DNA of 64,000 nt from Marinifilum caeruleilacunae (GTDB taxonomy: Bacteria > Bacteroidota > Bacteroidia > Bacteroidales > Marinifilaceae): contig NZ_RZNH01000024.1 in assembly GCF_013141825.1 (NCBI RefSeq), positions 1-64,000 on the forward strand, read 5' to 3'. The translations under genes and the position numbers were made by a program. Under the pieces are notes generated by a model that did not search any database, was not told where the DNA came from, and saw nothing but the letters and a program-made list of their open reading frames with translations. Shown piece after piece: positions 2,989 through 16,073 of this stretch. The stretch's first letter is position 1. Every line of letters begins with the position of its first letter.

Positions 2989-4022
2989 TGAATAGAAGAG
3001 GGCTTATAGCAGGCATATTATTTTTAATAATGAGTACTTTCAATCTGTATTCACAGGATGTCGAGTTTTCTCAGTTCTATGCAAATAAGGTGTATTTAAA
3101 TCCGGCCTTTGCAGGTTCTGATTTTGACGCCCGTATTTCTATGAACTATAGAAATCAATGGCCTGAAATTAGTTCTGCTTATGTAACTTATAGTGTAGCC
3201 TACGATCAGTATGTAAACCTGCTGGGCGGGGGAGTTGGATTGCAGGTAATGCAAGATGAACAGGGAGATGGTACCATTAGCACCACAACAATAAGTGGAA
3301 TGTATGCTTACACATTAAGAGTTTCGAGAGATTTGGCCATTAAAGCTGGTTTTCAAACCTCCTTTATTCAGCGAAAGCTAAATGATTCTAACTTTACTTT
3401 TCCTGATCAGACCGATGAATTTTACATTAATGGTTTAATCAGTCCATTTACAGGAGAAAGTGCAATTGATCATTTAAGTCGCAATTATATTGACTTTTCT
3501 ACTGGCCTGATTGCATCCTATAAGAATTGGTTTATTGGATTTGCAGCACATCACTTAACAGAACCTGACGAAGCCTATAAGGAAGAGAGTGATTATTCTA
3601 AATTGCCGAGAAAATACACCTTGCATTGTGGTGTAAATGTGCCTGTTTTTAGAAGAGGTTTGCATCAGTCTGATATTGGATTGGCTCCCAACTTTTTGTA
3701 CCAGCAACAAGGAACCAATAAACAGTTAAATTACGGACTGTACCTATCCAAAGGTTCGTTTATTGTTGGAATGTGGTATCGAGATAACCTGGAACTGGAA
3801 TATGATGCTGTGATTCTACAACTGGGTGTGATGCGCGATTGGTGGCAGGTGGCTTACAGTTACGACAAAACAGTTTCCAAATTGATTCACACCAATACCG
3901 GAGCCCACGAAATTTCATTCTTGATGCGATTTAAGAACAGCAAGAGAAACAAAAACAGTTGTCAGGAAATTGCGCTTAGAAGAAGAAGAAAAGTAGGACG
4001 AATTAAGTGCCCTCACTTCTAA
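2988..4022 (+). CDS. PorP/SprF family type IX secretion membrane protein
   Basis: 344 aa with an N-terminal signal peptide (hydrophobic stretch to about residue 22, ending LYSQ). It then has the family opening DVEFSQFYANKVYLNPAFAG and the RNQWPEISSAYVTY segment, which are hallmarks of PorP/SprF outer-membrane proteins. These proteins are partners of T9SS type-B substrates and probably anchor or help present them at the cell surface. The start codon overlaps the stop of the upstream repeat protein by one base, so the two are translationally coupled and this is very likely its dedicated partner. The C-terminus ends in a basic tail (KRNKN..RRRRK). The stop codon overlaps the stop of the convergent kinase gene by 4 nt. 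Confidence 0.92.
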   Translation: MNRRGLIAGILFLIMSTFNLYSQDVEFSQFYANKVYLNPAFAGSDFDARISMNYRNQWPEISSAYVTYSVAYDQYVNLLGGGVGLQVMQDEQGDGTISTTTISGMYAYTLRVSRDLAIKAGFQTSFIQRKLNDSNFTFPDQTDEFYINGLISPFTGESAIDHLSRNYIDFSTGLIASYKNWFIGFAAHHLTEPDEAYKEESDYSKLPRKYTLHCGVNVPVFRRGLHQSDIGLAPNFLYQQQGTNKQLNYGLYLSKGSFIVGMWYRDNLELEYDAVILQLGVMRDWWQVAYSYDKTVSKLIHTNTGAHEISFLMRFKNSKRNKNSCQEIALRRRRKVGRIKCPHF

Positions 4023-6454
4023 ATCATTTCGTTGATGATACTCAGCAGGTTCTTCTTAATAATAGGTTTAGCAATGTAACCATCGAAGCCCGAATCCATA
4101 ATTTGCTCTTTTTCATTGGCCAGGGCATAAGCAGTTTGAGCCACAATTTTAATTTCAGGATTATCTTTTTTAATCAGCTTTAAAGTGTCGTAGCCATTTA
4201 GTTCAGGCATTTGCAAATCTAAAAGCACCAAATCAAAATGCGATTCGCCACACTCTTCAACGGCAGATCTTCCGTTATCAGCAGAAGACAGTGTAACGCC
4301 GGTTGATTGAAGCATTTGCTTAATTAGTGTAATATTAACCGTGTAATCGTCCACAATAAGAATTTTCTTACCAGTCAAATCCTTATTGAATCCATTCTTC
4401 TGTGCTTTTTTAACAGGAGCAGTAGTCGATTTGTCATCAATAAGGTATGGTATACTCACAAAGAAGCTACTTCCAACATCCTCTGTCGATTCAACCCACA
4501 TATCACCATTAAGTAACTCAGCTAACTTTTTAGAAATGGATAAACCTAAACCAGTTCCTCCATACCTTCTTGCATGAGAATCATCCGCCTGACGGAAACG
4601 ACTGAAAATGATTTTCTGTTTTTCGGGTGAAATTCCTATGCCAGTATCTTCTACCGCAAAAATCAAATTACTCTCGTTTAACTGATAAGATACATGAATG
4701 CTGCCTGTTTCAGTAAATTTTAGGGCATTTTCAATCAAGTTGGTTATGATCTGCTTTAATCGCAAAGGATCGGTGTAGATAACCGATTCAGACTCTTCCA
4801 AGCCTTTGGTAAATTTTAAATCGATATGATCTTTTCCTTTGCTTGTTTTGATTTTTTGGAATGTATGATACAATTCATCAAACAATTGATTCAGGCTGTA
4901 ATACGTTTTGGAAATCTTCAACTTGCCAGATTCAATTTTTGAAAAATCAATAATGTCATTAATCAAATTCAATAGTGAATTGCCACTATTTCTGATATGA
5001 GTAAAAAACTGTTGTCTTGTTTCAAAAGGCAAATCATCTTCCTGCAGTAACTCAGAAAAGCCAATAATTGCATTCATTGGTGTACGAATTTCGTGCGACA
5101 TATTGGCCAGGAAAGAGGATTTTAATCGATCCGATTCTTCCGCTTTTTCCCTTGCAACCTGAAGCTCTTTTTCTTTTTGACTTCTGATATCAATCATCCG
5201 ATTGATTGTGGTGCCAAGATCCTGGAATTCGGAGAAATGAAGTTCGTTAATATCTACCTGGTATGACTGAGTGGAAGCCATTCTGAAAAAATTATTGAAC
5301 GAGATAAAATTCTGTTTCATTTTTACAGAAATGGTCTTCGAAGTAATGTAAATCACAATAATGGCAACAGCAATTAAAAGAATAATCTGAAGAATGTATT
5401 TTCTAACATTACTCCTTAATTCTGCCCTGGCAATTGCAATATTCTCATCAATTTCGCTGGTAAGTAAACCTGCACCAATAATCCAATCCCAATCCTTAAC
5501 CAACTTAATATAGGTCACCTTCCCATCTATTTGCGAATGTGGATTCTGATAATTTACAAAACCAGATTCTTCCAGTTCGGCAGCCTTAATCAATTGCTCC
5601 ACATTGTCTCTGCGAACTTTGCTCGTATAGTCTTTGTAATTTTTTCCAATACTTGTCGAATCTACATGCAACAAACAAGTTCCATCCTTTTTATAAACAA
5701 AGAAATAATTGTCCTGACTGGCATTAATTTGACTAATCCGAATCAAAGTTTCTTTTTGGATTTCGGGTTGTAAATCGTCTAAAAAAGCAAAACTTCCAAA
5801 ATACCAATTGTAAGGTGCAAATTTCCTGATATAAGAAATTTTGGTGTAAGCATTAAATTTGTTCTTTACCTGCTTGGTGTTCTCGTATTTGGTAAAAGCA
5901 CTATCCTTGTATTTCATTAATTCAACCTCATTCTTAACGATATAATTTCCATTGATATCTTTGAAATTAATTAAGCTCTTGTTTTCGTTTTGCTTTGAGA
6001 ATGGATAGAGTATGCCTGTGCCACTCAGATTGTTAATAAAAATATACCCCCTGTCATGATGAACTCTTAAAGGAGACAATGCTTCTTTGATTCGCTTTTT
6101 AATCTCGCGGTCGGATAAGGATCCTCTGTTTTCATTGTAAATATGTGTTGCGATTGCATGAGCTTGATTCACAAAGTTTTCCAGTCGGTCTTTTAAGCGG
6201 GATTCGGCGCGTGTATTCTGGTAGTTGATAAAGTCGATGCACTCATTGGCCTTATGAACCAATACATTTTTTTGCTCTTCAATATAATCTTTCTTAAGGT
6301 TATTCGATTCTGTATTGAATTCGTTAAACTTGGTATAAATCCATATGCCTCCAAAACCGACTAAAAATGTTATAGTCAGAACTAAAAATAGCAAAAAGTA
6401 GGCTCTACTTATGCTCATTTTGGTTTTGATTGACTTGCTAGGGGTTGAGTTCAT
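4019..6454 (-). CDS. Cache-domain hybrid sensor histidine kinase with C-terminal receiver
   Basis: 811 aa, inner-membrane sensor. Order: TM1 (about 19-39); a periplasmic double Cache-type region (about 45-340, with GYIFINNLSGTGILYP and YNWYFGSF motifs); TM2 (about 352-371); a short linker; HisKA with SHEIRTPMNAIIGFS (phospho-acceptor His454); HATPase_c with the DTGIGIS and GGTGLGLSISKKL boxes; and a C-terminal receiver with LLDLQMPELNG (Asp746). There is no DNA-binding output domain and no response regulator nearby, so signal flow must go through a separate HPt or regulator (inference). It is the second gene of a minus-strand operon, 14 bp after an unknown gene. Another Met at residue 13 could be the start. 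Its architecture is shared with the kinase at 43314-46127. Confidence 0.92.
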   Translation of the reverse strand: MNSTPSKSIKTKMSISRAYFLLFLVLTITFLVGFGGIWIYTKFNEFNTESNNLKKDYIEEQKNVLVHKANECIDFINYQNTRAESRLKDRLENFVNQAHAIATHIYNENRGSLSDREIKKRIKEALSPLRVHHDRGYIFINNLSGTGILYPFSKQNENKSLINFKDINGNYIVKNEVELMKYKDSAFTKYENTKQVKNKFNAYTKISYIRKFAPYNWYFGSFAFLDDLQPEIQKETLIRISQINASQDNYFFVYKKDGTCLLHVDSTSIGKNYKDYTSKVRRDNVEQLIKAAELEESGFVNYQNPHSQIDGKVTYIKLVKDWDWIIGAGLLTSEIDENIAIARAELRSNVRKYILQIILLIAVAIIVIYITSKTISVKMKQNFISFNNFFRMASTQSYQVDINELHFSEFQDLGTTINRMIDIRSQKEKELQVAREKAEESDRLKSSFLANMSHEIRTPMNAIIGFSELLQEDDLPFETRQQFFTHIRNSGNSLLNLINDIIDFSKIESGKLKISKTYYSLNQLFDELYHTFQKIKTSKGKDHIDLKFTKGLEESESVIYTDPLRLKQIITNLIENALKFTETGSIHVSYQLNESNLIFAVEDTGIGISPEKQKIIFSRFRQADDSHARRYGGTGLGLSISKKLAELLNGDMWVESTEDVGSSFFVSIPYLIDDKSTTAPVKKAQKNGFNKDLTGKKILIVDDYTVNITLIKQMLQSTGVTLSSADNGRSAVEECGESHFDLVLLDLQMPELNGYDTLKLIKKDNPEIKIVAQTAYALANEKEQIMDSGFDGYIAKPIIKKNLLSIINEMI

Positions 6455-7269: not shown

Positions 7270-10260
7270 ATGAACCTTAAAATCAAGCAACAAATTATAT
7301 TTTTACTCCTGCTATTTCCAGCATTCAATCTTTTTGCCGGATTTAGTCAAACCGATGGTTTTACACAAGTAGATGGATTGCCTTGCAATTGTGTAAATCA
7401 CATCTTTGAAGATTCGCGTGGACTAATTTGGCTTGCTACCGATGCGGGTTTATGCGAGTTTAATGGTTATGAAGTTGGATTTAGAAAAGAATTGAATCGC
7501 TTACAAGGTGAAAAAGTAACCAGTCTGGCCGAAGATGCAAAGGGCAATCTTATTATTACAGCTTCGGGCGTTGGAGTGTGTGAATTCGATGGAGAGAAAC
7601 TTGAGGTATTAACGAATTTAATAGAAAATACTCCCATAGAGATACGTTCTGTATCAAAGCATAATAATTCGATATTTATTGGAGCTTCAAATGGCGTTTT
7701 TGTACGAGATACAGCCAAACATGCAGTTAAATTTTTACAGTTAAGCGGTTCTGAAAATTTGAATGTATCGTCAACAATGGTTCAAGATGACAATTTAATT
7801 GTATTTCCGAAATTTAAATTGGGCAGTTCAAAATATCAATCCGAACAAATTGTAAGTACAAAACATCATAAGCGCAAGGTCTTACAATTGAATACTAAAT
7901 TTCGTCAAAATATCTTAGTCGGAGAGCAAGTGATCCTAAAAGGTGATGGGGAAAATATCATTTGCGATGTAATCAATCGGCTGACCAACAAAAATGAATT
8001 GTTTGTCTTGTTGCGATATTTCAAAAATAATCAAGAACACAGAAAACTAATTTCAATAAAGGATGAGCTTTGTGTTGATTATTTGGAAGAAAACAATTTA
8101 CATGATGTGTTTGTACAATCACTTTTTAAGCATAAACTTACAAAAGATGTATGGTTGGGGACAAAAAATCATGGTTTAATTCGCTTGAAACAATCTATAT
8201 TCACTTTATACAAACTCGAAGATTTACTCCCGGAAATTGGCAATGTGGTCGATTTTGTTTCTCTGCTCGATGGCTCAGTATTTTTAGCAGGAAATGGGAT
8301 AGGTAAAGTAGTAGATGGAAGGGTTCAGGAAATGATTCCAATCCAGCAATTTCAGAACTTGCTTCCCAAAAATAGTAAAGACCGCGATATCATATTTAAT
8401 GATATTGAAAAGAATGGTGACGTACTGTGGATTGCCACAAATCATGGTTTTTTCACATTAGATGGTAACACTTTCCGACTTGAATATAAAGGAATTTCAA
8501 AAGCCATTAAGTTTATTGTTCTGTCCAACAATCGATTGTTTTATTACGATGGGAGCCGATTTGTAACCACAGGTATGAATTCTGGCAAGACTAAAATTCA
8601 TATGAAACATACCGAAAGAGATGAGCTTGAAATTACAAAAATGATTGAGTTTGATTCTAAGGTATGGGTGTCAACCGAAAACCAGGGGATTTATAGATTT
8701 GATGAAGATAGTGTTTATGAATATGGCAGGAAAAATTGTGGCATTCACAATGTGGTAAATGATATGCTTATTTTACCGGATTCAAGCATTATTGCAGGTG
8801 GAAATAATGGCATTCTTTACAAGTTAAAAAGCCAGGGAAATAAACTTATTATAAAGGATTCAATTGATAATAGTGATGGACTGGAAGGAATATCGGTTCA
8901 TGGCTTTCAATACCTTTCGGATGGTTCTATTTGGTGTGGAACCAATTTGGGTGTTCACAGGTTTGATTACAGTACATGGCATCCCGATTCTGTATTGCGA
9001 TATCGTTTTTGGAATGCAAGCAAAGATGTTGAATTCCGTGGCAAAGAATCCTTAATTGACAGGTACGGGAATATTTGGGTAAATTCCAACCATACTTTAA
9101 TGAAAATTAATGCCGATGATTATGATGTGGATAACACCTCCTATCAACCCTCATTGCTTGGTGTGAAAATAAAGCAAAATCATTGGAAATCTAAAAAATC
9201 AGAAGTCAACAAATGGACAAGTATTCCCAAAAATCCAATTCACCTAAACCATAGGGAGAACTATGTGAGTTTTACTTTTGGGATGCTCTATTGCGATAAC
9301 CTGGAGAATATAAAATACCGATATCGCCTGCTTGGTTTAGACGATGATTGGTCGGAATGGAAAACCACAAACGAGGTGGTCTATTCAAATTTAAAAGGTG
9401 GTGACTATAAATTTCAATTGGAAGCCCGAAAATTAAGTTCCGACCAGGTTTCAACTTATGCGATAGATGTTATTTTGGATACAGCATGGTGGAAAACCAT
9501 CTGGTTTTGGGTGATTGTACTGTGTATTCTGACTGTTGCCATTTATTACGGAATTAAGTATTACAAGTCGAGAATACGCTTCGAAGAAAAGCAAAGAACC
9601 AAACAATTTAACCGGGTAATCGGATTAAAAATTAAAGCCTTACAATATCAGCTCGATCCACACTTTATCTTTAATTCATTAAACTCGATACAAAGTTATA
9701 TTCTTGATGAAGAAGAAGATAAAGCCTTGGAATATTTGTCAGATTTTTCAATGGTTCTGCGCAACAATATCGATAATGCCAATAAAAATATGATTGGCTT
9801 GCATGAGGAGTTGGCCTATTTGAAATTGTATCTGAAACTTGAACAAATGCGATTTGAAGAGAAGTTTAGTTTCCAGATTAATGTAGATGAAAACATAAAT
9901 CCGCGAGACATTCAAATTCCACCCATGATTATACAGCCATTTTTAGAGCATGCCATAAGATATGGCATTGGCAAACTGGAAGCAACCGGCAAACTAATTA
10001 TCCGTTTCGTTTTAGAAGAAGATGGATATTTAAGGTGCGTGATTACCGATAATGGAAAAGGAAACAGAAAAGTCGACATTAAAAATACCGAATCGGACTT
10101 TATTGCGGGAAATTCTTTGCAAACTACTTGCGATCGAATGAAACTTCTAAATAAGGTGCTTAGCAATGGAAGAACTTATTCTTATAAGATTAATGAGTTT
10201 ATCGATTCGAAAACCAATTTCTCAGGAGTAATTACCGAAATAGGATTCCCAAAATTGTAA
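7270..10260 (+). CDS. Two-component propeller sensor with LytS-type histidine kinase domain
   Basis: 996 aa. Signal peptide at 1-23, then Reg_prop-type beta-propeller repeats to about residue 640 (e.g. IFEDSRGLIWLATDAGLCEF; DGSIWCGTNLGVHRF). These are followed by a Y_Y_Y domain (about 655-730, YRYRLLGLDDDWSEW), one TM helix (about 742-763), and a LytS/YehU-type His_kinase domain with QLDPHFIFNSLNSIQ (His798). The periplasmic part would sense a ligand and the cytoplasmic part would phosphorylate a LytTR-type regulator. None lies next to it, which is unusual. The N-box is altered: the common ENAI.HG reads EHAIRYG here (His894 instead of Asn), and the GLG box is also poor (GNSLQTTCDRM), though DNGKG is intact. 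ATP use may therefore be weak or absent (inference). Confidence 0.9.
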   Translation: MNLKIKQQIIFLLLLFPAFNLFAGFSQTDGFTQVDGLPCNCVNHIFEDSRGLIWLATDAGLCEFNGYEVGFRKELNRLQGEKVTSLAEDAKGNLIITASGVGVCEFDGEKLEVLTNLIENTPIEIRSVSKHNNSIFIGASNGVFVRDTAKHAVKFLQLSGSENLNVSSTMVQDDNLIVFPKFKLGSSKYQSEQIVSTKHHKRKVLQLNTKFRQNILVGEQVILKGDGENIICDVINRLTNKNELFVLLRYFKNNQEHRKLISIKDELCVDYLEENNLHDVFVQSLFKHKLTKDVWLGTKNHGLIRLKQSIFTLYKLEDLLPEIGNVVDFVSLLDGSVFLAGNGIGKVVDGRVQEMIPIQQFQNLLPKNSKDRDIIFNDIEKNGDVLWIATNHGFFTLDGNTFRLEYKGISKAIKFIVLSNNRLFYYDGSRFVTTGMNSGKTKIHMKHTERDELEITKMIEFDSKVWVSTENQGIYRFDEDSVYEYGRKNCGIHNVVNDMLILPDSSIIAGGNNGILYKLKSQGNKLIIKDSIDNSDGLEGISVHGFQYLSDGSIWCGTNLGVHRFDYSTWHPDSVLRYRFWNASKDVEFRGKESLIDRYGNIWVNSNHTLMKINADDYDVDNTSYQPSLLGVKIKQNHWKSKKSEVNKWTSIPKNPIHLNHRENYVSFTFGMLYCDNLENIKYRYRLLGLDDDWSEWKTTNEVVYSNLKGGDYKFQLEARKLSSDQVSTYAIDVILDTAWWKTIWFWVIVLCILTVAIYYGIKYYKSRIRFEEKQRTKQFNRVIGLKIKALQYQLDPHFIFNSLNSIQSYILDEEEDKALEYLSDFSMVLRNNIDNANKNMIGLHEELAYLKLYLKLEQMRFEEKFSFQINVDENINPRDIQIPPMIIQPFLEHAIRYGIGKLEATGKLIIRFVLEEDGYLRCVITDNGKGNRKVDIKNTESDFIAGNSLQTTCDRMKLLNKVLSNGRTYSYKINEFIDSKTNFSGVITEIGFPKL

Positions 10261-11247: not shown

Positions 11248-11541
11248 ATGGCAAGTAAAAAAGAATTCAAAAAAGATGTGAACTTTCTAACCAACGAGAT
11301 TGTGATGAGAGGAATGATTCACCTTGAGTTTTTTGGTGAAAAAAATTCAGAACAGATTTTTGAAATTATGAATAAAGCAGTTGAGTCACGAAACGACTAT
11401 ATTTCGAGAATTAATGATCGTTTGTCTGGGAAGAATGCAAAGGAAGTGAAGGCTCACTTTAAATTGATATATGATGATTTGTTGAAATCAACTCACAATT
11501 TATTGGAGGAAATTGATGGACTGGATATTACAGTAAAATGA
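11248..11541 (+). CDS. Small conserved-looking helical protein of unknown function
   Basis: 97 aa, charged and almost entirely helical in character, with no signal peptide or membrane segment. I do not recognise the family. It has a clean ATG, its own intergenic region upstream and a strong terminator directly after the stop, which supports a real monocistronic gene. There are many Lys/Glu residues and a central ISRINDRLSGKNAKEVKAHF stretch. Confidence 0.75.
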   Translation: MASKKEFKKDVNFLTNEIVMRGMIHLEFFGEKNSEQIFEIMNKAVESRNDYISRINDRLSGKNAKEVKAHFKLIYDDLLKSTHNLLEEIDGLDITVK

Positions 11542-11544
11542 TAT

Positions 11545-11580
11545 AAAAAAGGAGTTTGAATTTGTCAAACTCCTTTTTTA
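11545..11580. terminator. Bidirectional rho-independent terminator
   Basis: GGAGTTTGA pairs with TCAAACTCC around a 5-nt loop. There is a T-tract on the plus side and an A-tract on the left, so it can serve both the 97-aa gene and the convergent avidin-like gene. Confidence 0.85.
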
Positions 11581-11581
11581 T

Positions 11582-11923
11582 TTAAGGTTTTCTAAATGTT
11601 CCTACACCTGTTAATATAGCTTTGGCCATTTGCTCTTCATCGCTTCCTTCGCTTTGGGACAAATGCCACATGGTGTGTATCACCGGACCAATTTCATCCA
11701 GTTCAAAACGTCCTGTCCAGCAGGCCATCGAGCCATACTTTCCAAAATCAACCATAAAAGCAATTACATTATTATTGATTTTACCAGTGATCTCAAATTT
11801 TTCTTCAAATTTAGGCTGCCCAATGGCAGTTTGGAATGTGCCGCTAACTCTGTTTTCAACAACTGCCAGATCCATTTCGGAGTTGTATTGGTTTCTCCAT
11901 TTACCGTTTAAATTTATTGTCAT
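11582..11923 (-). CDS. Avidin/streptavidin-family protein, cytoplasmic
   Basis: 113 aa that align along almost the whole length of a streptavidin barrel: GKWRNQYNS, VSGTFQTAIG, CWTGRFELD, IHTMWHLSQSEG and LTGVGTFRK match GTWYNQLGS, LTGTYESAVG, TWSGQY, INTQWLLTSG and LVGHDTFTK. Of the streptavidin biotin contacts, N23, S27, S88, W92 and W108 are kept (here N11, S15, S65, W69, W86). Y43, S45, N49, W79, T90, W120 and D128 become F30, T32, Q36, F60, A67, A100 and G108. An in-frame TAA lies five codons before the ATG, so no signal peptide is possible, unlike classical avidins, which are exported. Loss of the Trp120 and Asp128 equivalents suggests weaker biotin binding, a dimeric form or another ligand (inference). 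Monocistronic, next to an asparaginase gene on the same strand. Confidence 0.85.
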   Translation of the reverse strand: MTINLNGKWRNQYNSEMDLAVVENRVSGTFQTAIGQPKFEEKFEITGKINNNVIAFMVDFGKYGSMACWTGRFELDEIGPVIHTMWHLSQSEGSDEEQMAKAILTGVGTFRKP

Positions 11924-11998
11924 GTTGTTTAAGGTTTAAAGGTAATACTTTCGTAATCTTAAGTTAGTCGGAAATTATGAATCAACAAAATATTCAAT

Positions 11999-12991
11999 CT
12001 ATTTATAAATGAATTTTTCTCTGCTTCCTTTTGAGTTGACATATCCTCTATACATTCCCGAAGTGTTCATCTTCATGGCTGGATTTCCATATTTATCCAG
12101 GGCAACAAAACCTCCGGTTCCTTGAATCTGATTTAACTTTTCAATCATAGCATCAGTGGCTTTATCCAGGCTTAGTTTCTGATATTCCATCATTGCAGCA
12201 ATATCCTGGGCAACACCTAGCCTGATAAAAAACTCACCATGCCCGGTACAGGATACTGCACATGTATGATTGTTTGCATAGGTTCCTGCGCCAATGATTG
12301 GAGAATCGCCAATTCGACCAAACTTTTTATTGGTCATTCCACCCGTAGAGGTTCCGGCAGCCAAATTTCCATTTTTATCCAGAGCTACACAACCCACTGT
12401 ACCATGGCGATCTGTCTGTGTCATTTCACGTTCTTTTTTTAAGATTTTCTGAAGGTAATTCCATCTTTTTTCAGTGAAAAAGAAAGAACTGTCAACCATC
12501 TCCAAGCCTTCCTGAACTGCAAATTCAGATGCTCCTTTTCCACTCAGCATCACATGTTCAGAATTCTCCATCACCTTACGTGCAGCACTAATCGGATTTT
12601 TGATATCACCAACACCAGCTACAGCTCCGGCATTTAAATCTTTCCCCCACATGATAGATGCGTCCAACTCATTTTTACCTGAATGAGTAAATACAGCTCC
12701 TTTACCAGCATTAAAAAGAGGAGAATTTTCAAGAACATGAATGGTTAACTCTACCGCATCCAAAGCCGAGCCTCCATTTTTTAAGACTGAATCACCAACA
12801 CTCAAGGCTTCATCAAGCTTGTCGAAATATGCTTTTTCTTTTTCCGGCGTCATGTTTTTCTTCAGAATGGTTCCGGCACCGCCATGAATACAAAGAGCAT
12901 ATTCAAGTTGTTCTGGGTTTTGTTCAGTAGACTTACAGGATATCACAGCAATTGCAATGATGACAGATAAGAGGATGTTGAAGTTTTTCAT
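11999..12991 (-). CDS. Isoaspartyl peptidase / plant-type L-asparaginase, lipoprotein
   Basis: 330 aa Ntn-hydrolase of the threonine aspartase family. I chose the Met at 12991 because it opens a lipoprotein signal (MKNFNILLSV..AVISC, lipidated Cys19); a longer frame begins at 13024. Motifs: YALCIHGGAGTI near the N-terminus, NAGKGAVFTHSGKNELDASIM, the autocleavage site RHGTVGCVALD with catalytic Thr198, and GTSTGGMTNKKFGRIGDSP, which lines the active site. It should self-cleave into alpha and beta subunits and hydrolyse asparagine or isoaspartyl dipeptides in the periplasm or at the outer membrane. The exported, lipid-anchored form is common in Bacteroidota. Confidence 0.92.
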   Translation of the reverse strand: MKNFNILLSVIIAIAVISCKSTEQNPEQLEYALCIHGGAGTILKKNMTPEKEKAYFDKLDEALSVGDSVLKNGGSALDAVELTIHVLENSPLFNAGKGAVFTHSGKNELDASIMWGKDLNAGAVAGVGDIKNPISAARKVMENSEHVMLSGKGASEFAVQEGLEMVDSSFFFTEKRWNYLQKILKKEREMTQTDRHGTVGCVALDKNGNLAAGTSTGGMTNKKFGRIGDSPIIGAGTYANNHTCAVSCTGHGEFFIRLGVAQDIAAMMEYQKLSLDKATDAMIEKLNQIQGTGGFVALDKYGNPAMKMNTSGMYRGYVNSKGSREKFIYK

Positions 12992-13008
12992 ATGGCTAAA
13001 TTTTGGGT

Positions 13009-13073: not shown

Positions 13074-16073
13074 TTAATTTTTTTGATGCATGTTTTTCTG
13101 AATAATAGCCAGTAGCTCTTCTTCGGTATATGGCTTGGCAATAAAGGCATCGCAACCAGCTTCGGTCATCTTATTGCTTTCGTCTCTAAAAGCATAAGCC
13201 GATTGGGCAACAACAGGAACCGAAGGATTCTGCTTCTTGATTTCTCTGGTAGCCTGGTAGCCATTAATTCTTGGCAATTGAATGTCCATTAAAACAAGAT
13301 CGAAATGATCATCCTGAAATTTTTCGACGGCTTCTACACCATCTTGCGACCAGGTAACATTGGCATTCACTTTCTTTAGTACTTCGTTAATGTATAGGAA
13401 GTTCGATTCAACATCTTCAGCTACTAATATGTTTTTACCTGAAAAATCTAAAGGGTTGTTCTCTTTTCTTACCGATTTAGTCTGTACAATTGTATCATCA
13501 TCAATTAAAAATTCAACATAGAACTCACTTCCTTTATCGGGATCTGAGGTAAACCAAATTTTACCATTTAGGAGTTCCGCCAAACTTTTCGATATGGTTA
13601 GGCCTAAACCAGTGCCTCCATGTTGTACGCCATTATTACTGGCTTGTCTGAATCGGTCATAAATCAATGCCTGATCTTTATATGGAATTCCAATACCAGT
13701 ATCTTTTACGAAAAATCGAATATGTCCTTCAATCAGTTCAATTCCAAAATCAATTTTTCCTGAATCGGTGAACTTCATTGCATTTCTAAGCAGGTTGATC
13801 AAAATTTGCTTCAATCGAATTTGGTCAGAATGCATCGATATATTCTCAATTTCTTCTGGAATATACAGGTTGATCTCTAAATCAGATTTTTCTGCCTTGT
13901 GTTTTTGTTCTTCAAATACTTGTCGAAGTTCTTCCAGTACAGGATAGATGTAAAAATTTGATTTTTTAATTTTCAACTGCTTCGATTCAATCATCGAAAT
14001 ATCGATAATATCGTTCACCAATGTTAGTAGAATGTGACCGTTATCATTAATAATATTTGTATAATATTCGTGCTTTTCTTTGGAGTTGGTAAAGGCCATT
14101 AATTTTGAGAAACCAATAATGGCATTCATTGGTGTCCTGATTTCATGCGACATGTTGGCCAGGAAAGAAGTTTTTAATCGATCGGCCTGTTCTGCTTTTT
14201 CCTTTGCTTTTAACAATTCCAATGTTCGTATTTTAACCAGACTTTCCAGGTTTCTTTGATGATCGGCAAGCAAGGCTTCAGCTTTTTTACGCTCCTCGAT
14301 CTCGTTATTTAAATTTTTATTTGATTTTTTAACCACCAGGAAGAATCGGTAAACTATTCCCGAGAAAAGAATAATTAATCCAACAATAAGAATCAAAAAA
14401 GTATTAGTAAGTCTTTCTTTTTGAAGTTTTTCCTCTTTTAGAAATTGTTCTTTGGCATGCAGGCGAACAAGGTTTTCCCTTTTTTCTTTTTCGTTTTGCA
14501 TTTGAATCCAACCAATTCTGTTCTCAGCTTGTGCATTGTAAAGTTGATTGTATATGCTAACGTAATCTTTATAGTATTGTAATGAAAGCTTGTAATTTTC
14601 CTTTTTCAGGTAGATGTCCGACAGGTTTCTATAGTTCTCGGCCATTAAAGTTTTACGATTAATTTTTGTGGCCAGATTTAAACTGTTTTTTAAATAATGA
14701 ATGGCTTTTTTTGAGTCATTTTTAACATCATAAAGCGCAGCTAAATTGTTATAAACAGATCCCAATCCGCCAAGGTTTCCTGTATTTTTATTAATATCTA
14801 CCGAGAGGTTAAAATACTCTTCTGCTTTTTCAAAATTATTTTGCTTTACGTAAATCAGTCCAATATTTGTATAGCAAGAGGCAATGCCTTTTAGGTTATC
14901 AATCGATTTTTGGATTTGAAGCGATTTCTCATAATTGAACAGTGCTAAATCGAGCCTTCCTTCATGTAAATGTGCGTTACCAAGTTTACGCAGTACATTC
15001 GCGCTTCCTTTTACGTAGCTAATTTGGTTGTTTAAGGCAATGGCTTGCTCAAATTTTTCAATGGCAAGTTTATAGTCACGCATCGAGTAGGAAATTAATC
15101 CTAAGTTTTCATAACACTTGGCAATTTTCTTTTTTGAATCTAATTCTTCAAAAAGTTTAAGTGCCTTGTGCTGAAATTCAATCGCTTTGTCGTTTTGAGC
15201 CATAGATTGAAACACTTCTCCCATACCCATATAAGAACTTGCAATGCCATTTTTCGATCCCAACTCATAACTAAGGTTCAACGATTTGGTATACAGTTCT
15301 ATTGATGTGTTTCTGTTTCCCAGGTTATTCTGTAACGATGCCAATTGGTTTAAACTGTAGGCAATGTTTTTAATAAGTTGATTCTCTTCACCCAGTTTTA
15401 AGGCTTTATTAAAATACTCTATAGCTAAATCGGTATTGTTTATTTCTTTATAGGTGGTGCCAAGGGCATTTAAAGAGTAGCAGATGCCTGAAATATTATT
15501 GTATTTTCGGTTCAGATTGAGTGCTTTCAGGTAAAAGGTTAAAGCTTCGGTATAATGGCATGTTTCAAACTGCACATTTCCAAGTGCATTATAACTATAT
15601 GCATATGATAAAGTATCGCGAATTGTCTTTTTGAGTTCCAGACTTTTTTTGTAGAATCCATCAGCCGTAGAATAGTTACATTGAACAAAGTTCAACTCCC
15701 CAAAGTAACTGTACAAATAGCTCATTCTGCTAGTATCTCTTACACTTTCCCAATAATCAAACGAGCTAACAAAGCATTTCTCAGCTTCCTTTATTTCGCC
15801 CTGGAAAAGATAAATTCGACCCATCAATTCGTTTGCAAAAGCAAACTTATCCATTTGTTCCGCTTCCAAAGATTGATCTGCAAGCAGTTTTGCTGTGCTT
15901 AAAGCTTTTGGGTTATTTTTGTAGTAATAAGATTCCGCTTCAACATGCAATTTGTTGAGATCCGTAATATTAATCTTTCTTTCTAAAGGTGCTGAATCAG
16001 GTGACGAGAAACCGTAGGTCGCAAAAGCAACACATACAAGTAAAAGGAGAAAGTTCTTCATTCGTTGGGGCAT
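13074..16073 (-). CDS. TPR-containing hybrid histidine kinase with C-terminal receiver
   Basis: 999 aa. Signal peptide (MKNFLLLLVCVAFATYGFSS after the second Met), then about a dozen TPR repeats (roughly 60-520, e.g. AIEYFNKALKLGEENQ, AEEYFNLSVDINKNTG) in the periplasm. These are followed by one TM helix (about 550-572), a coiled-coil linker, HisKA with SHEIRTPMNAIIGFSKL (His643), HATPase_c (DTGIGIP, GGTGLGLTISKSL) and a receiver with LLVLMDIQLPRING-like core (Asp930). The TPRs probably sense a periplasmic protein or peptide partner (inference). It has no adjacent response regulator. Starts at 16073 or 16061 are both possible; the second gives the more typical signal peptide. Confidence 0.92.
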   Translation of the reverse strand: MPQRMKNFLLLLVCVAFATYGFSSPDSAPLERKINITDLNKLHVEAESYYYKNNPKALSTAKLLADQSLEAEQMDKFAFANELMGRIYLFQGEIKEAEKCFVSSFDYWESVRDTSRMSYLYSYFGELNFVQCNYSTADGFYKKSLELKKTIRDTLSYAYSYNALGNVQFETCHYTEALTFYLKALNLNRKYNNISGICYSLNALGTTYKEINNTDLAIEYFNKALKLGEENQLIKNIAYSLNQLASLQNNLGNRNTSIELYTKSLNLSYELGSKNGIASSYMGMGEVFQSMAQNDKAIEFQHKALKLFEELDSKKKIAKCYENLGLISYSMRDYKLAIEKFEQAIALNNQISYVKGSANVLRKLGNAHLHEGRLDLALFNYEKSLQIQKSIDNLKGIASCYTNIGLIYVKQNNFEKAEEYFNLSVDINKNTGNLGGLGSVYNNLAALYDVKNDSKKAIHYLKNSLNLATKINRKTLMAENYRNLSDIYLKKENYKLSLQYYKDYVSIYNQLYNAQAENRIGWIQMQNEKEKRENLVRLHAKEQFLKEEKLQKERLTNTFLILIVGLIILFSGIVYRFFLVVKKSNKNLNNEIEERKKAEALLADHQRNLESLVKIRTLELLKAKEKAEQADRLKTSFLANMSHEIRTPMNAIIGFSKLMAFTNSKEKHEYYTNIINDNGHILLTLVNDIIDISMIESKQLKIKKSNFYIYPVLEELRQVFEEQKHKAEKSDLEINLYIPEEIENISMHSDQIRLKQILINLLRNAMKFTDSGKIDFGIELIEGHIRFFVKDTGIGIPYKDQALIYDRFRQASNNGVQHGGTGLGLTISKSLAELLNGKIWFTSDPDKGSEFYVEFLIDDDTIVQTKSVRKENNPLDFSGKNILVAEDVESNFLYINEVLKKVNANVTWSQDGVEAVEKFQDDHFDLVLMDIQLPRINGYQATREIKKQNPSVPVVAQSAYAFRDESNKMTEAGCDAFIAKPYTEEELLAIIQKNMHQKN

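Follow-up and report, generated by a model that had tools for sequence, protein, structure and literature searches.

A conserved avidin-family protein with no signal peptide and an altered biotin pocket in Marinifilum and related genera

The stretch of DNA analyzed here, hereafter called the window, comprises 64,000 nucleotides of a Marinifilum caeruleilacunae contig (NZ_RZNH01000024.1, positions 1 to 64,000). It carries on its minus strand an avidin-family gene (11582..11923; open reading frame, Pfam and alignments), whose product of 113 amino acids lacks a signal peptide and has an altered biotin pocket. From the features described below, we infer a ligand, an affinity, a location in the living cell and a buffering role: the protein would be a weak, reversible cytoplasmic avidin, most likely a reversible biotin buffer, a reading to which we assign a probability of about 0.4.

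An earlier note on this DNA had proposed an avidin homologue at this position without giving a strand. The open reading frame is real and lies on the minus strand, with its ATG at 11923 and its stop codon at 11584-11582. The encoded protein matches the Pfam family Avidin (PF01382) over residues 4-109 with an E-value of 2.9e-16 and 60.3 bits (cut-off 24), spanning positions 1-114 of the 116 in the profile. Solved avidins are matched by sequence with best E-values of 1.1e-7 for the single sequence and 8.4e-10 for the family profile, and NCBIfam gave no match for the protein. An AlphaFold2 model made from an alignment of 15 family members has eight strands that form a predicted avidin barrel (mean pLDDT 86.9); its lower-confidence parts are residues 31-40 and 91-100, which we take to be loops 3,4 and 7,8. 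When the predicted model was submitted to Foldseek, the best 50 of 146 matches (E up to 0.001) were all avidins or streptavidins with TM values by query of 0.74-0.86, and the listed matches include xenavidin, chicken avidin, rhizavidin and shwanavidin. A chance match is ruled out by the Pfam E-value together with the conservation across six genera and the dN/dS values given below. Thus, the proposed homology holds, and profile and model together show a true member of the avidin family with a predicted avidin fold.

PF01382 occurs in 23 of the family's 57 genomes, and all 23 belong to the 24 genomes that make up six genera: 6/6 of the genus itself, 5/5 of g172, 1/1 of g179, 8/9 of g181, 1/1 of g182 and 2/2 of g184. 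The single g181 genome lacking the gene is 63% complete. The other 11 of the 17 family genera, including g180 with a single complete genome, have no PF01382 match, and a search with the family profile, in which up to 11 candidates were scored per genome, matched none of 392 other genomes sampled from the order. The base rates are 1/395 for genomes of the phylum (the genome studied here) and 2/395 for those of the class (this genome and L044), and in the other groups where an avidin turned up the occurrence is sporadic, at 1/397 (one other family), 1/36 and 1/11. Records of Marinifilum, Labilibaculum and one Marinifilaceae MAG make up the named relatives. Loci L001-L014 and L015-L037 represent largely the same genomes found in two ways, and all genome counts use one set only.

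The avidin is 90% identical to that of Labilibaculum L009, where five neighboring genes are 49-72% identical and arginyl-tRNA synthetase (argS) is 88% identical over the 163 residues present in the locus. Against L036 of genus g172 the corresponding values are 73% for the avidin and 90% for argS, and the avidin therefore evolves faster than argS in that comparison. The median dN/dS is 0.039 and the maximum 0.164 in the 48 of 190 pairs with dS of 0.05-1.5 (20 genes), a set that excludes L031 and in which one of the 48 usable pairs involves the window gene (with L001: dN 0.034, dS 1.49). Synonymous sites are largely saturated, and 11 of 19 comparisons with the window gene have no computable dS. 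On these comparisons, the avidin gene is a maintained gene shown to be inherited vertically. A gene that is decaying or unexpressed might account for the altered binding site, but the dN/dS median speaks against this, as do a frame that is open in all 23 gene-bearing genomes (22 complete, one cut by a contig end) and a terminator-like hairpin directly downstream of the avidin stop (11543..11581, minus strand), making such decay hardly conceivable. The hairpin lies between convergent genes and is the one found in 11400-12100, where shuffled sequences gave a mean of 0.3.

An origin from a phage or mobile element was considered and rejected, with no match in 50,697 phage records and with conserved chromosomal synteny; among viral contigs, 54 candidate stretches gave no confirmed avidin match. 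Plasmid records contain 82 matches, all below 60% identity (44 Xanthomonas, 37 Burkholderia and 1 Rhizobium), of which just one covers 80% of the query and two were inspected.

The in-frame stop that the earlier note placed five codons before the start was located: a TAA is the fifth codon upstream of the ATG, with T-L-N-N between, inside the 75-base gap (11924..11998, minus strand) that extends from the end of the upstream gene to the avidin start. With this TAA so close and residue 7 already belonging to the first predicted strand, no space is left for a signal peptide. In all 23 gene-bearing genomes the frame is closed by a stop codon 1-26 codons ahead of the same Met. The longest of these upstream stretches, the 26 codons of L023, contains one internal Met and has no counterpart in the other genomes. 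Judged from sequence, the signal peptide of secreted avidins is lacking, and we conclude that the protein would not be exported by this route. The assertion that it cannot be secreted like known avidins is correct as to the signal peptide, but it overstates the contrast, since the part of PMC8033661 cited here gives a predicted signal peptide for only about 50% of putative bacterial avidins.

The biotin pocket was assessed at the twelve streptavidin contacts of the earlier note, paired by MAFFT alignment with streptavidin and by HMMER pairs with xenavidin and zebavidin. Five contacts are kept (N23, S27, S88, W92 and W108, corresponding to N11, S15, S65, W69 and W86), and seven are changed (Y43 to F30, S45 to T32, N49 to Q36, W79 to Phe, T90 to A67, W120 to A100 and D128 to G108), in agreement with the count and substitutions first reported. 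The partner of W79 is ambiguous, being F56 by MAFFT and F60 both by HMMER (to xenavidin) and by spacing to W92; because both candidates are Phe, the change stands. The conserved set of biotin contacts is therefore incomplete, with W120 and D128 both lost. The Trp120 that is donated to the neighboring subunit in a tetramer has no counterpart, since Ala100 occupies its site in all 21 complete 113-residue copies, the one in this genome included. The protein has one Cys, C68, which is Ser in L030 and L031, so that no loop disulfide of the dimeric-avidin type can form within the chain, and the rhizavidin-type bond between loops 3,4 and 5,6 is absent.

Taken singly, several of these changes would be less unusual than they appear. 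W120A streptavidin still binds biotin with a Kd of 3e-9 M (PMC3334968, in the part cited), Phe is found by spacing at the W79 site of L039, and the dimeric avidins rhizavidin, shwanavidin and hoefavidin have no W120 equivalent, a loop disulfide taking the place of the lid Trp (PMC5398887, in the part cited). Single losses are thus tolerated, as would be expected if the protein were an ordinary high-affinity avidin with different contacts. Like the dimeric avidins, it has no lid Trp (A100), and rhizavidin and shwanavidin are among the nearest folds listed. Those proteins have their own disulfide between loops 3,4 and 5,6, however, and shwanavidin aligns with Asp at the D128 site where the window protein has Gly. 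Moreover, the lid Trp, D128, T90, Y43 and W79 are changed all together, and we therefore judge high-affinity binding of this kind to be very unlikely. It is the combination of the changes, and its fixation, that appears to stand out.

Conservation was examined at the 15 contact residues named in the cited part of PMC3334968, using a 15-row alignment of 14 of the 22 complete proteins from family genomes plus L002. In this alignment L024 stands for the identical L025, and the near-identical L018, L020, L026, L027, L028, L029 and L036 and the cut-off L034 were left out. Invariant residues occupy 11 of 15 pocket positions versus 23 of 98 others (one-sided Fisher p = 2.6e-4), and 13 of 15 versus 55 of 98 (p = 0.020) once the most divergent row, L031, is removed. 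We regard this as support for a putative ligand and not as proof, because some of the residues also hold the fold and the rows are related, not independent. Counting the window's own, 16 of the 21 complete copies in the closer family share one string of 15 contacts; the remaining five, from genus g172, have Leu at N49 and Tyr at W108, and L034, which is cut by a contig end, agrees with the common string as far as it reaches. The divergent L031, at 39% identity, carries Glu in place of N49 and Gly in place of T90, and its alignment is gapped at W120. Across the gene-bearing genomes, Y43F, S45T and W79F occur in 23/23, T90A in 22/23 (the exception being L031), D128G in all 22 copies reaching the site and W120A in 21 of 22 (again excepting L031), L034 ending before these two sites. 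The pocket changes, whose persistence in close relatives had been named as a point to check, are thus nearly uniform across the 23 genomes.

The description of this pocket as unusual is made against few comparison avidins (L038, L039, L040, L044 and streptavidin) and the cited papers. Relative to streptavidin, with which it shares the fold and the five kept contacts, the window protein differs at the other seven, in lacking a signal peptide and in its length of 113 residues. L038, from a family (f7) that may be Flavobacteriaceae, and L039, from a Rhizobium gallicum plasmid, have hydrophobic leaders by eye, and the annotation of L040, from a Xanthomonas plasmid, marks it as exported. W120 and D128 are retained in all three. 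A second leaderless avidin is found in L044 (1486-1911), from another Bacteroidia family in which 1 of 36 genomes has the gene. Its upstream stop is four codons away, and equivalents of both W120 (..DTWKST..) and D128 (..GQDVF..) are visible by eye in a canonical-looking site. An avidin can therefore lack export without having lost the tight site, so that the two traits are separate, and cytoplasmic life alone does not explain the changes. The Marinifilaceae protein combines the two traits. As a separate observation, the L039 avidin frame (1381-1857 of that locus, plasmid pRGM101a), with its leader-like N-terminus and a Pfam Avidin score of 57 bits, has no gene in the PLSDB table, which is incomplete.

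We propose that in Marinifilum and close genera the avidin barrel remains cytoplasmic. The floor of the pocket is kept, with the N23, S27 and S88 equivalents, two of the four Trp residues and Thr for S45. The polar groups of D128, T90 and Y43 are lost, one Trp is replaced by Phe and the lid Trp120 is gone. Because D128, T90 and the Y43 hydroxyl are lost on top of W120, we expect micromolar or no biotin binding. Such a protein may bind biotin, a biotin precursor or a biotinylated form weakly and reversibly, and would then buffer biotin inside the cell or hand it over, in a host that probably makes its own biotin. This genome carries bioB (356 bits, cut-off 225), and no BioY was detected in it. 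The bioB gene lies on another contig in a 3.9-kb locus where no further biotin gene was recognized by eye among the open reading frames.

The model for an avidin that serves the biotin economy of its own cell is rhizavidin of Rhizobium etli. A rhizavidin mutant grows more poorly when subcultured, and either the gene or biotin corrects the defect, an indication that a bacterial avidin is able to conserve biotin and keep it in store for the cell that makes it (PMC8914248, in the part cited). According to the same source, rhizavidin is a high-affinity binder in a biotin auxotroph, whereas the window protein has an altered pocket and a host that bears bioB. The view in the earlier note, that a weak binder or a different ligand is likely, remains reasonable, but a cytoplasmic location does not force it: L044 retains W120 and D128, and the rhizavidin knock-out points to biotin storage (PMC8914248).

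Several points argue against a buffer. The joint loss of D128, T90 and Y43 could abolish biotin binding, and the kept part of the pocket appears to drift too, as in the Tyr for W108 and Leu for N49 of genus g172 and the gap at W120 in L031. Furthermore, the presence of bioB does not track the avidin, and bioB is not adjacent to it. A bioB gene scores above cut-off in 53 of 57 family genomes, with or without avidin, and BioY was found in 0 of 57 by a search that was positive in 9 of 14 control genomes. A link between avidin and biotin genes by co-occurrence was dropped because neither gene discriminates.

The main rival to the biotin buffer is a barrel turned to a different small cytoplasmic ligand, with biotin binding lost and the pocket reshaped. 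In its favor, seven of the twelve contacts are changed, and the changes other than N49Q hold in all or nearly all gene-bearing genomes even though synonymous sites have largely reached saturation. Non-polar groups stand in place of the polar ones of D128 and Y43, which we take to form the ureido end of the biotin site, and residues invariant and specific to this family include Y13, P37, Y63 and F39-x-E41-K42-F43. The Foldseek matches listed also include an avidin structure with 8-oxodeoxyadenosine (2a5c), from which it follows that the barrel tolerates other ligands. However, the floor of the biotin site is kept (N23, S27, S88, W92 and mostly W108), and the neighborhood suggests no candidate ligand. 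We hold this rival to be possible but, on balance, unlikely. Tentatively, the protein might then be a housekeeping small-molecule binder of the cytoplasm, established throughout a group of marine bacteria, whose pocket was reshaped for a ligand other than free biotin, for example a precursor of biotin, a biotinylated stretch of protein or a metabolite unrelated to biotin.

The barrel might instead have no small ligand and serve as a structural or protein-binding element, in the manner of the sea-urchin fibropellins. These carry an avidin-like domain with altered Trp residues and do not bind biotin, as stated in the part of PMC8033661 cited; in five genomes, likewise, W108 is replaced by Tyr. 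The fibropellins are eukaryotic, however, and the avidin mutants modeled on them have Lys and Arg at two Trp places (PMC8033661), where Ala and Phe are found here. The pocket is also more conserved than the rest of the protein, which would be unexpected if it were idle, though fold constraints overlap the pocket positions. We consider this reading quite improbable.

Both the gene family and its occurrence in these genera have already been published. Laitinen et al. 2021 (PMC8033661) list Marinifilum, Labilibaculum and Ancylomarina as carriers of putative avidins, which share the Pfam family of the window protein and probably include orthologues of its gene. In the part of that paper cited here, the new clades as a whole are described as apparent biotin binders, the 'Metavidins' are doubtful, the function of bacterial avidins is an open question, and the text gives no one-by-one treatment of pocket or location for the Bacteroidetes proteins. 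It was the only paper found in the open-access literature naming both Marinifilum and avidin. In searches on cytoplasmic or intracellular avidins, biotin storage and non-biotin-binding avidin domains, it was likewise the only one on this group among the matches listed. The open-access literature searched yielded no account of this pocket, which the supplements of PMC8033661 may hold. What appears to be new is the combination of no signal, loss of both W120 and D128, and strong conservation.

Bacterial avidins are usually explained by secretion and by biotin starvation of competitors or predators. An unsecreted avidin that lacks the tight-binding residues, yet has a dN/dS of about 0.04 and an identity close to that of argS between Marinifilum and Labilibaculum, points to a function inside the cell. 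We know of no other avidin kept for an in-cell function independent of tight biotin capture. The gene thus offers a direct test of whether avidins act in biotin homeostasis or have taken on another ligand. If weak biotin binding is true, engineers of reversible biotin binders would have an interest in a natural avidin that is 113 residues long and has one Cys; if the pocket has been reshaped for another ligand, the cell would be keeping an avidin for an internal function in which tight biotin capture plays no part.

At the locus, a scan with the sigma-70 consensus, which does not cover other promoter types, found no site in 11924..11998; its one match lies inside the avidin gene, against a mean of 3.0 in shuffles. 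No Rfam family was detected in the window. The upstream neighbor (11999..12994, minus strand) is a member of the asparaginase/isoaspartyl peptidase family (PF01112) with a lipoprotein-like N-terminus by eye. It is absent at the locus in L008, L012, L014 and L025, where a histidine kinase gene directly precedes the avidin gene (the genomes of L008, L012 and L014 recur as L024, L017 and L034, respectively). The convergent neighbor is a 97-residue open reading frame (11248..11541, plus strand) with no family above cut-off in Pfam or NCBIfam. In those Marinifilum and Labilibaculum loci that reach far enough, synteny is kept for this frame, argS, two histidine-kinase-like genes and an aminotransferase. 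No match to the 97-residue frame lies within 1.5 kb of the avidin gene in five g172 loci, and of seven window genes tested, only argS is found within that distance in g172 and none in L031. Neighboring genes were accordingly dropped as functional partners, the peptidase being missing in some relatives and the genes tested other than argS not staying close in g172, nor any of them in L031. In L031, of genus g179, the avidin gene (1489-1821 of that locus) adjoins dehydroquinase-like and glycyl-radical-enzyme-like open reading frames, both assigned by eye. Three large sensor-kinase-like genes, also recognized by eye, lie within a 12-kb stretch around the avidin gene in the window (4019-6454, 7270-10260 and 13074-16073). 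For the two compared, at 7270 and 13074, identity with the counterparts in L008-L014 is only 39-57%, against 88-90% for the avidin.
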